NCBI RefSeq assembly: GCF_014195535.1
Contig: NZ_JACIBY010000008.1
Coordinates: 124,001 to 188,000 of the forward strand
Direction: 5' to 3'
DNA length: 64,000 nucleotides
Source of the DNA: Runella defluvii
GTDB lineage: Bacteria; Bacteroidota; Bacteroidia; Cytophagales; Spirosomataceae
Part shown: positions 23,979 through 24,423 of the stretch, piece by piece
Layout: every line of letters starts with the position of its first letter
Position numbering within the stretch: position 1 is the first letter of the stretch
Notes under the pieces: generated by a model
Database searches by the model: none
What the model was told of the DNA's origin: nothing
Seen by the model: the letters and a program-made list of their open reading frames with translations, nothing else
Program-made: the position numbers and the translations under genes

Positions 23979-24009
23979 TTGCGAATGTAAAGTTCATTTT
24001 CTACTTTTG
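23979..24009 (+). promoter_or_regulatory. Promoter of the split tRNA gene
   Basis: TTG (23979-23981), a 20-bp spacer and TACTTTTG (24002-24009) fit the Bacteroidota consensus exactly. The expected start point near 24015 lies 25 nt before the tRNA. Confidence 0.7.
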
Positions 24010-24039
24010 CACCCACAAAATATCGAAGAGGTATTTTTA

Positions 24040-24382
24040 GGGCCCATAGCTCAGTCGGTTAGAGCATCTGACTCATCAACAACTGTTAAAAGCAGTTAAC
24101 GGTGCCGCTAGCAAGAGATTGTTAGATGGAATAGGGGTTAATTCAGGGAAGCCTTAACGGGTAGCGCCGATGGTAATCCTGAGCCAAGCCAAGTGAACGG
24201 TTTAAAAGTAACTTGGAAGGTGCAGAGACTAAGAAGTGAGGAAACCAACCAATAAGCTTCTACTAACGCCCCTCACCCGACTCCTAAATTAATTTGGGAA
24301 GGGTGGTGAGATAGTCCTACTACTTTGGGAAACCAGAGGAAAGTGAATCAGGTGGTCGCAGGTTCGAGCCCTGCTGGGCCCA
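24040..24382 (+). tRNA. tRNA with CAU anticodon, interrupted by a group I intron
   Basis: Exon 1 (24040-24076) and exon 2 (24346-24382) join into a complete 74-nt cloverleaf: acceptor GGGCCCA/TGGGCCC, D arm GCTC...GAGC, anticodon stem TCTGA/TCAGG (one U-G pair), loop CTCATAA with anticodon CAU at 24074-24076, T arm GCAGG-TTCGAGC-CCTGC, discriminator A. CCA is not encoded. It is not the initiator: position 1-72 is a G-C pair and the anticodon stem lacks the GGG/CCC signature. Elongator Met and lysidine-modified Ile(CAU) both remain possible; I cannot decide from sequence. All functional elements are intact, so the gene should be active if the intron splices. Confidence 0.9.
24077..24345 (+). 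ncRNA. Group I self-splicing intron (269 nt) in the tRNA anticodon loop
   Basis: Inserted after the third anticodon base. Exon 1 ends in T and the intron ends in G (24345), as group I splicing needs. Core elements: AATTCAGGGAAGCCTTAACG (P/J3-4 region, from about 24140), AATCCTGAGCCAAGCC (Q, about 24175-24190), GGTGCAGAGACTA (R, 24219-24231) and AGATAGTCC (S, 24309-24317), with AGACTA/TAGTC(C) forming P7. GTG at 24102-24104 can pair with exon CAT as the internal guide (U-G at the splice site). CTAGCAA-GAGA-TTGTTAG (24108-24125) is a P2 hairpin with a GNRA loop; CTTTGG-GAAA-CCAGAG (24323-24338) is P9. AACTG...CAGTT (24081-24097) is an extra hairpin in the P1 loop. No ORF inside. The layout resembles the small tRNA introns of the Azoarcus tRNA-Ile(CAU) type. 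Confidence 0.92.
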
Positions 24383-24383
24383 C

Positions 24384-24423
24384 AAAAAAGCACTTACGAG
24401 CAAAACTTGTGAGTGCTTTTTTT
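24384..24423 (+). terminator. Intrinsic terminator after the split tRNA
   Basis: AAAAAAGCACTTAC (24384-24397) pairs with GTGAGTGCTTTTTT (24409-24422) with one G-T pair, followed by a T-run. It begins two bases after the tRNA end and closes the tRNA transcript before the convergent hsdR stop. Confidence 0.85.

Follow-up and report, generated by a model that had tools for sequence, protein, structure and literature searches.

Accounts of group I introns in bacterial tRNA genes usually center on cyanobacteria and Proteobacteria. The intron of the Azoarcus tRNA-Ile gene is known by its sequence and by its insertion site directly behind CAU, and introns of subgroup IC3 carry no extension between P7 and P3. 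The available portions of PMC4498298 assign the Azoarcus pre-tRNA-Ile(CAU) intron to group IC3, describe T4 td as similar to the IC3 ribozymes of Azoarcus and Synechococcus apart from the P7-P3 extension, and place P7.1 and P7.2 between P7 and P3 in group IA introns. In the accessible part of the tRNAscan-SE 2.0 paper (PMC8450103), tRNA-Ile2 group I introns of Acidovorax and Burkholderia are noted, as are 36 genomes in which the fMet or Ile2 tRNA went uncalled owing to group I introns; a 2014 review's table of bacterial tRNA introns, as far as available, lists cyanobacteria and alpha- and beta-proteobacteria. No tRNA group I intron of Bacteroidota was found in the literature searched, subscription papers being mostly outside the scope of that search.

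In the window, that is the whole stretch of 64,000 nucleotides of Runella defluvii (Bacteroidota) analyzed here, a CAU-anticodon tRNA gene at 24040-24382 carries a group I intron of 269 nt (24077-24345) directly behind U36, with 37 bases of the tRNA on either side. A search with the Rfam models (cmscan), as the first-pass annotation had advised, gave RF00028 as the single match of the whole window, at 24087-24339 of the plus strand with 75.5 bits (gathering cut-off 50 bits; E 2.4e-17) and spanning model positions 1-253 of 253. The intron proposed in that annotation is thereby borne out, with exact coordinates. ARAGORN called zero tRNA genes in the window as given and, with introns allowed, misplaced the junction and typed the gene as Gln(CTG); after removal of 24077-24345 it called a canonical CAU cloverleaf, as had been predicted for the joined exons. 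Since standard annotation (ARAGORN without introns) misses the split gene, the genome seems to lack an AUA-reading tRNA. In 74 of 74 bases the joined exons agree with uninterrupted tRNA genes from G059 and G028, genomes that belong to two other genera of this family. The gene and its surroundings comprise the following elements, the tRNA being named according to the assignment given further below.

24002..24009, plus strand: TACTTTTG, resembling the Bacteroidota -7 box TAnnTTTG (sequence; likewise upstream of several Runella tRNA-Ile2 genes)
24040..24076, plus strand: 5' exon of the putative tRNA-Ile2(CAU), ending with the anticodon CAU (sequence, ARAGORN on the joined exons, match to the uninterrupted genes of the two other genera)
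24077..24345, plus strand: group I intron of 269 nt without a long ORF (Rfam RF00028, ARAGORN on the joined exons, ORF check)
24346..24382, plus strand: 3' exon of the putative tRNA-Ile2(CAU), CCA not encoded (sequence, ARAGORN, uninterrupted genes)
24384..24422, plus strand: terminator-like hairpin of -21.2 kcal/mol with a T run at its end (fold)

A promoter scan of the sigma-70 type found none at the split tRNA gene, and a consensus scan listed no terminator there. Directly upstream of the tRNA lies a leader hairpin (24017-24037) that seemingly recurs with altered stem letters at other Runella tRNA-Ile2 loci.

The P, Q, R and S motifs, the P7 pairing, the GAAA loop of P9 and the U·G splice-site pair, all reported in the first-pass annotation, are seen in the sequence and its fold, where they are arranged as follows.

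24074..24077, plus strand: P1 5' strand CAU/C, with the U of the splice-site U·G pair at 24076 (sequence)
24081..24097, plus strand: P1 extension hairpin AACTG/CAGTT, site of the HNH gene in relatives (fold, HNH ORF positions)
24101..24104, plus strand: P1 3' strand, internal guide sequence GGUG (alignment, fold)
24108..24125, plus strand: P2 with GAGA loop (covariation, fold)
24133..24138, plus strand: P3 5' strand (covariation, fold)
24143..24182, plus strand: P4-P5 with the P and Q motifs (Rfam, covariation, fold)
24183..24221, plus strand: P6 and P6a (covariation, fold)
24227..24231, plus strand: P7 5' strand, R motif GACTA (Rfam, covariation, fold)
24232..24261, plus strand: P7.1-like hairpin AGAAG/CTTCT between P7 and P3 (covariation; an insertion relative to the Rfam consensus)
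24268..24273, plus strand: P3 3' strand (covariation, fold)
24274..24305, plus strand: P8 (covariation, fold)
24312..24316, plus strand: P7 3' strand, S motif TAGTC (Rfam, covariation, fold)
24323..24338, plus strand: P9 with GAAA loop (covariation, fold)

The hairpin that had been noticed earlier in the P1 loop is real and pairs 24081-24085 with 24093-24097. U24076 is positioned opposite G24101 of the guide sequence, and G24345 is the final intron base. The unconstrained minimum-energy fold of 24040-24382 recovers the P1 extension, P2, P3, P4, P5, P6, P6a, P7.1, P8 and P9, while P7 is missing because it is a pseudoknot and cannot appear in such a fold.

Covariation was analyzed on the cores of 21 introns at the CAU/AA site, 20 of them in tRNA-Ile2 and one (L109) in an elongator-Met-like tRNA, a set hand-picked from rough host-typing tables and not exhaustive. 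The final intron base is G in all 21, the guide reads GGTG in 20 and TGTG in one (one row has an extra leading T), and the L2 loop is a GNRA tetraloop throughout (GAAA in 10, GTAA in 5, GAGA and GGAA in 3 each). Both sides change in 33 of 54 pairs compared with 17.4 in shuffles, and 95.3% of the cells are paired compared with 82.1%, observed values that none of 500 shuffles reached; in a control that shifted the partners by 1-3 columns, no more than 17 pairs changed on both sides and no more than 49.3% of the cells were paired. Such changes are found in four of the five pairs of the P7.1-like hairpin and in three of the six pairs of P3, which is 99.2% paired. P4, P6 and P7 are nearly invariant across the 21 introns and hence less informative, P7 being uninformative for covariation because it is 100% paired yet never varies. 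The insert thus combines a group I core by covariance model, a P3/P7 pseudoknot kept across relatives, and the U·G pair with a terminal intron G.

The window intron is very probably the ORF-less form of a mobile intron with a P7.1-like brace, spliced from pre-tRNA-Ile2 and with HNH-bearing relatives. The gene would be transcribed as pre-tRNA-Ile2, in which the intron would adopt the group I ribozyme fold including the P7.1-like brace. The guide GGUG would pair with the CAU at the end of exon 1 to form P1, a bound guanosine would attack after U24076, and the freed U would attack after G24345. The ligated exons would form tRNA-Ile2(CAU), which would read AUA after conversion by TilS. In the relatives, the P1 loop would encode an HNH homing endonuclease. 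The intron looks intact and is probably self-splicing, and its tRNA gene is probably essential.

Within the genus, the tRNA-Ile2 intron is present in 9 of 13 Runella genomes, three with an apparently intact HNH gene, one with a broken one and five, the window's among them, without an ORF; the remaining four genomes possess the uninterrupted gene, in five copies. The P1-loop hairpin is a variable spot in which relatives carry the HNH gene. Such an ORF is found in 10 of the 21 CAU-site introns, from several families, and begins about 20-70 nt into the intron. Seven of the 21 relatives harbor an apparently intact ORF (L034, L035, L039, L086, L095, L106, L113), three a broken one (L033, L085, L120), and the window copy none. 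The Ile2-intron ORF matches PHROG HNH endonuclease families at 1e-19 and gives no match to Pfam HNH at E 0.1. Key Cys/His/Asn positions are common to the intact ORFs; of 21 pairs, the 9 with unsaturated dS, for which dN/dS could be computed, give values of 0.06-0.18. In L034 and L035 the stop codon lies in the P2 loop; in L039, L086, L106 and L113 the ORF continues through the guide sequence, P2 and P3 into P4/P5 before it stops. In these four relatives the same DNA would thus encode the last part of the enzyme and the core of the ribozyme, the reading frame of the HNH gene traversing guide, P2, P3 and P4.

One genome (G005) has an HNH-bearing intron at the very locus of the window, with flanks matching the window's by 93.1% over 1054 nt upstream and 97.5% over 1457 nt downstream, and this intron is the nearest to the window intron in the tree. 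The allele states look like a homing cycle inside one genus, and tree, synteny and states are consistent with a homing gene that was acquired, decayed and was lost. The HNH protein would have moved the intron by DNA cleavage, and the window copy would have lost the gene. No HNH remnant is recognized by eye in P1 of the window intron. It is also possible, though we do not favor it, that the window copy never bore an HNH gene and that introns of other strains acquired theirs at a later time: the ORF is missing from five of the nine Runella Ile2 introns, and the viral HNH relatives are free-standing near tRNA genes. This would have to be reconciled with the spread of the gene over 10 of the 21 introns in several families, with its three broken copies, with the HNH-bearing syntenic neighbor in G005 and with L111, which by eye retains a stretch resembling the final part of the HNH gene.

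In Runella, the uninterrupted tRNA-Ile2 genes (L055, L056, L057, L058 and L068, in G004, G009, G006 and G003) have the odd T-loop ATCGTGC in place of TTCGAGC. This and other changes in their 3' halves do not occur in ten further uninterrupted genes from the family with which they were compared, and are perhaps linked to intron resistance.

HNH relatives are encoded at 43 viral-contig loci, several of which are near-copies. A tRNA gene lies at most 300 nt away in 38 of them, whereas in the controls, taken from the far ends of other viral contigs, any tRNA is found within 3 kb in 3 of 63 pieces. The two closest relatives (54% and 52% identity) have a CAU tRNA, not clearly Ile2, at distances of 10 and 64 nt, and no RF00028 match at cut-off was found in the 20 of the 43 loci that were scanned. 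The HNH family appears to be tied to tRNA genes outside introns too and, since the viral relatives are free-standing genes near tRNA genes, is able to exist apart from the intron. Among 80 viral contigs with an intron pattern, three have a CAU-type 5' exon by pattern: L386 and L443 carry short, Azoarcus-like introns behind it, and the tRNA of L391 is uninterrupted. No CAU intron of the window's P7.1 type occurs among the 80. A more daring proposal, which we regard as doubtful, is that a P7.1-type ribozyme and an HNH gene of a phage family residing in tRNA gene arrays were joined at the tRNA-Ile2 of Bacteroidota and run through a complete homing cycle within one genus in an indispensable tRNA gene. 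If so, empty, armed, decayed and disarmed alleles would coexist in one genus. The Runella genomes form a closely related set for studying how a homing endonuclease is acquired, decays and is lost at one probably essential site.

With the Azoarcus intron the window intron has in common the tRNA, the insertion site behind CAU, the U·G splice-site pair and the small size. The comparison with Azoarcus drawn in the first-pass annotation therefore stands for gene and site but probably not for the ribozyme, which groups with P7.1-bearing introns. Proteobacterial tRNA-Ile2 introns were taken from a pattern scan of named genomes (at least 118 stretches, 80 loci listed). Among the loci listed, they are by eye of two builds, namely six short, Azoarcus-like introns (L180, L217, L220, L226, L237, L254) and thirteen long ones in which R is followed by an additional hairpin (L181, L182, L188, L191, L193, L208, L213, L218, L229, L232, L242, L248, L253). 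The P7.1 hairpin of the window intron is absent from the six short introns, and the R-to-S distance is 57-93 in 20 Bacteroidota Ile2 introns compared with 40-51 in the short ones.

A tree was calculated from 122 introns (L242 and L247 absent) and 162 columns, sparsely filled columns including P7.1 being left out; its bootstrap had not settled (0.959), and several rows are long branches. The window intron belongs to a group of 46 rows (support 96/94), in which the Bacteroidota Ile2 introns are joined by 12 long introns from proteobacterial tRNA-Ile2, by L109, by two introns of tmRNA and by others. The long form is found in all 46 rows, compared with 3 of the 76 rows outside. The six short introns cluster separately, with Bacteroidota tRNA-Arg, fMet and Leu introns. 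AU tests reject the placement of all Ile2 introns in a single clade (p 0.029); at the 0.05 level they reject neither a clade of Bacteroidota and short Ile2 introns (p 0.106, lnL -36) nor one of Bacteroidota and P7.1-bearing proteobacterial Ile2 introns (p 0.248).

That the window intron is a close IC3 relative of the Azoarcus intron, passed on from Proteobacteria, would agree with the identical tRNA and CAU/AA site and with the p value of 0.106 for the joint clade. Given the P7.1-like hairpin in all 21 Bacteroidota CAU-site introns, the longer R-to-S distance, the uniformly long-form tree group and the rejected single Ile2 clade, we consider this descent improbable. Instead, the intron probably represents another ribozyme lineage at the Azoarcus insertion site, and two ribozyme lineages likely occupy one site, CAU/AA of tRNA-Ile2. 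With p 0.106, separation from the short proteobacterial introns is likely but not proven. The covarying hairpin at 24232-24261 is an extension between P7 and P3 of the kind that subgroup IC3 lacks; of the subgroup IA features, this one hairpin is present and a second is not seen. At three Burkholderiales loci of this analysis (L191, L193, L242), the intron has a P7.1 hairpin whose loop reads similarly to that of the window intron (TGAGGA..CCAA.C..ATAAG). The Acidovorax and Burkholderia tRNA-Ile2 introns differ in their proteobacterial host, and Bacteroidota and proteobacterial introns do not form one clade in the tree.

In blastn, positions 99-192 of the query match Staphylococcus phages with 73.7% identity (E 4e-6; 25 phage records match), at places that are presumably introns; no match of the intron region to plasmids was found. 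Phage group IA2 introns such as T4 td and Twort, according to the available portions of PMC4498298 and PMC1995217, share the P7-P3 extension with the window intron, which differs from them by a single hairpin in place of P7.1 and P7.2, a short P9 and a tRNA as host gene. Cyanobacterial tRNA-Leu(UAA) and tRNA-fMet introns are likewise group I introns in anticodon loops, but of other tRNAs, and the Bacteroidota introns in tRNA-Leu and tRNA-fMet are found in the other main group of the tree. The window intron is of a known kind; its novelty lies in the host phylum, in a P7.1 build at the insertion site of the Azoarcus intron and in the accompanying HNH genes of relatives.

The first-pass annotation knew of no well-described case in Bacteroidota, which agrees with how little is reported in the literature searched; the introns are, however, not rare. 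Genome surveys with RF00028 at E 0.001, the samples of which overlap, gave matches in 10 of 13 Runella genomes, 43 of 200 genomes of the family (33 above cut-off), 30 of 390 of the order and 30 of 395 of the phylum. About a fifth of the sampled genomes of a Bacteroidota family are thus intron-bearing, in several tRNAs. Host genes include tRNA-fMet, Leu(UAA), Ile2, Arg and tmRNA, as typed roughly by exon alignment and by letter patterns; the patterns labelled 83 of 106 loci and left 23 unlabelled, and at least two of the labels (L100 and L125) are wrong when compared with the exon alignment. In two genomes of the order, introns (L108, L110) lie directly beside or overlap tmRNA matches, close to the 3' end of the tmRNA. 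The CAU-site intron L109, which falls into the tree group of the window intron but is housed in an elongator-Met-like tRNA, suggests an intron jump between CAU tRNAs. Three Runella introns (L040, L041, L042) reside in tRNA-Leu(UAA); the HNH ORF of L040 matches Pfam HNH, and that of L041 is interrupted.

The window genome (G000; 8.0 Mb, 50 contigs, completeness estimated at 99.99%) contains 42 RF00005 matches, of which ARAGORN typed 41 without introns allowed. The further CAU tRNAs that the first-pass annotation wished to see searched for are two, L015, which by eye is initiator-like with an unpaired first position and a G-C-rich anticodon stem, and L024, which by eye is elongator-Met-like. As these look like initiator and elongator Met, the split gene is assigned to tRNA-Ile2(CAU) by elimination. 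Its best E. coli match is the annotated tRNA-Ile with anticodon CAU (81.1%), and its Ile2-like body is distinct from both Met tRNAs. Neither a second tRNA-Ile2 nor a tRNA-Ile(UAU) is present among the 41 typed matches. With its 50 contigs, in which tRNA-Ile(GAU) and tRNA-Ala(UGC) were not found, the assembly probably lacks repeats such as the rRNA operons, so that the sole tRNA-Ile2 is the sole copy found and a second one in missing repeats is possible. The dependence of the cell on splicing, suggested earlier for the case of a sole CAU elongator or Ile2 tRNA, is probable insofar as this is the only Ile2 found. tilS is present (181.3 bits), and AUA makes up 101 of 17945 codons in 24 long window ORFs, 21 of which use it. 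A relic with a decayed intron or a dead tRNA gene, AUA being decoded by another tRNA, is conceivable in an assembly that is not closed but very improbable in view of the unchanged exons, the preserved ribozyme fold and core, the lack of another AUA-reading candidate among the typed matches (the untyped one being Val/GAC-like) and the use of AUA in 21 of the 24 ORFs.

The untyped match L054 (G000:C1:982782-982881) has an anticodon loop of 35 nt; when introns are allowed, ARAGORN reads it as Val(GAC) with an intron of 26 nt. Three 92-nt tRNA-Val(UAC)-like genes (L051, L052, L053; G000:C9:260390-261270) carry an insert in the T-arm region and adjoin two normal tRNA-Val(UAC) genes.
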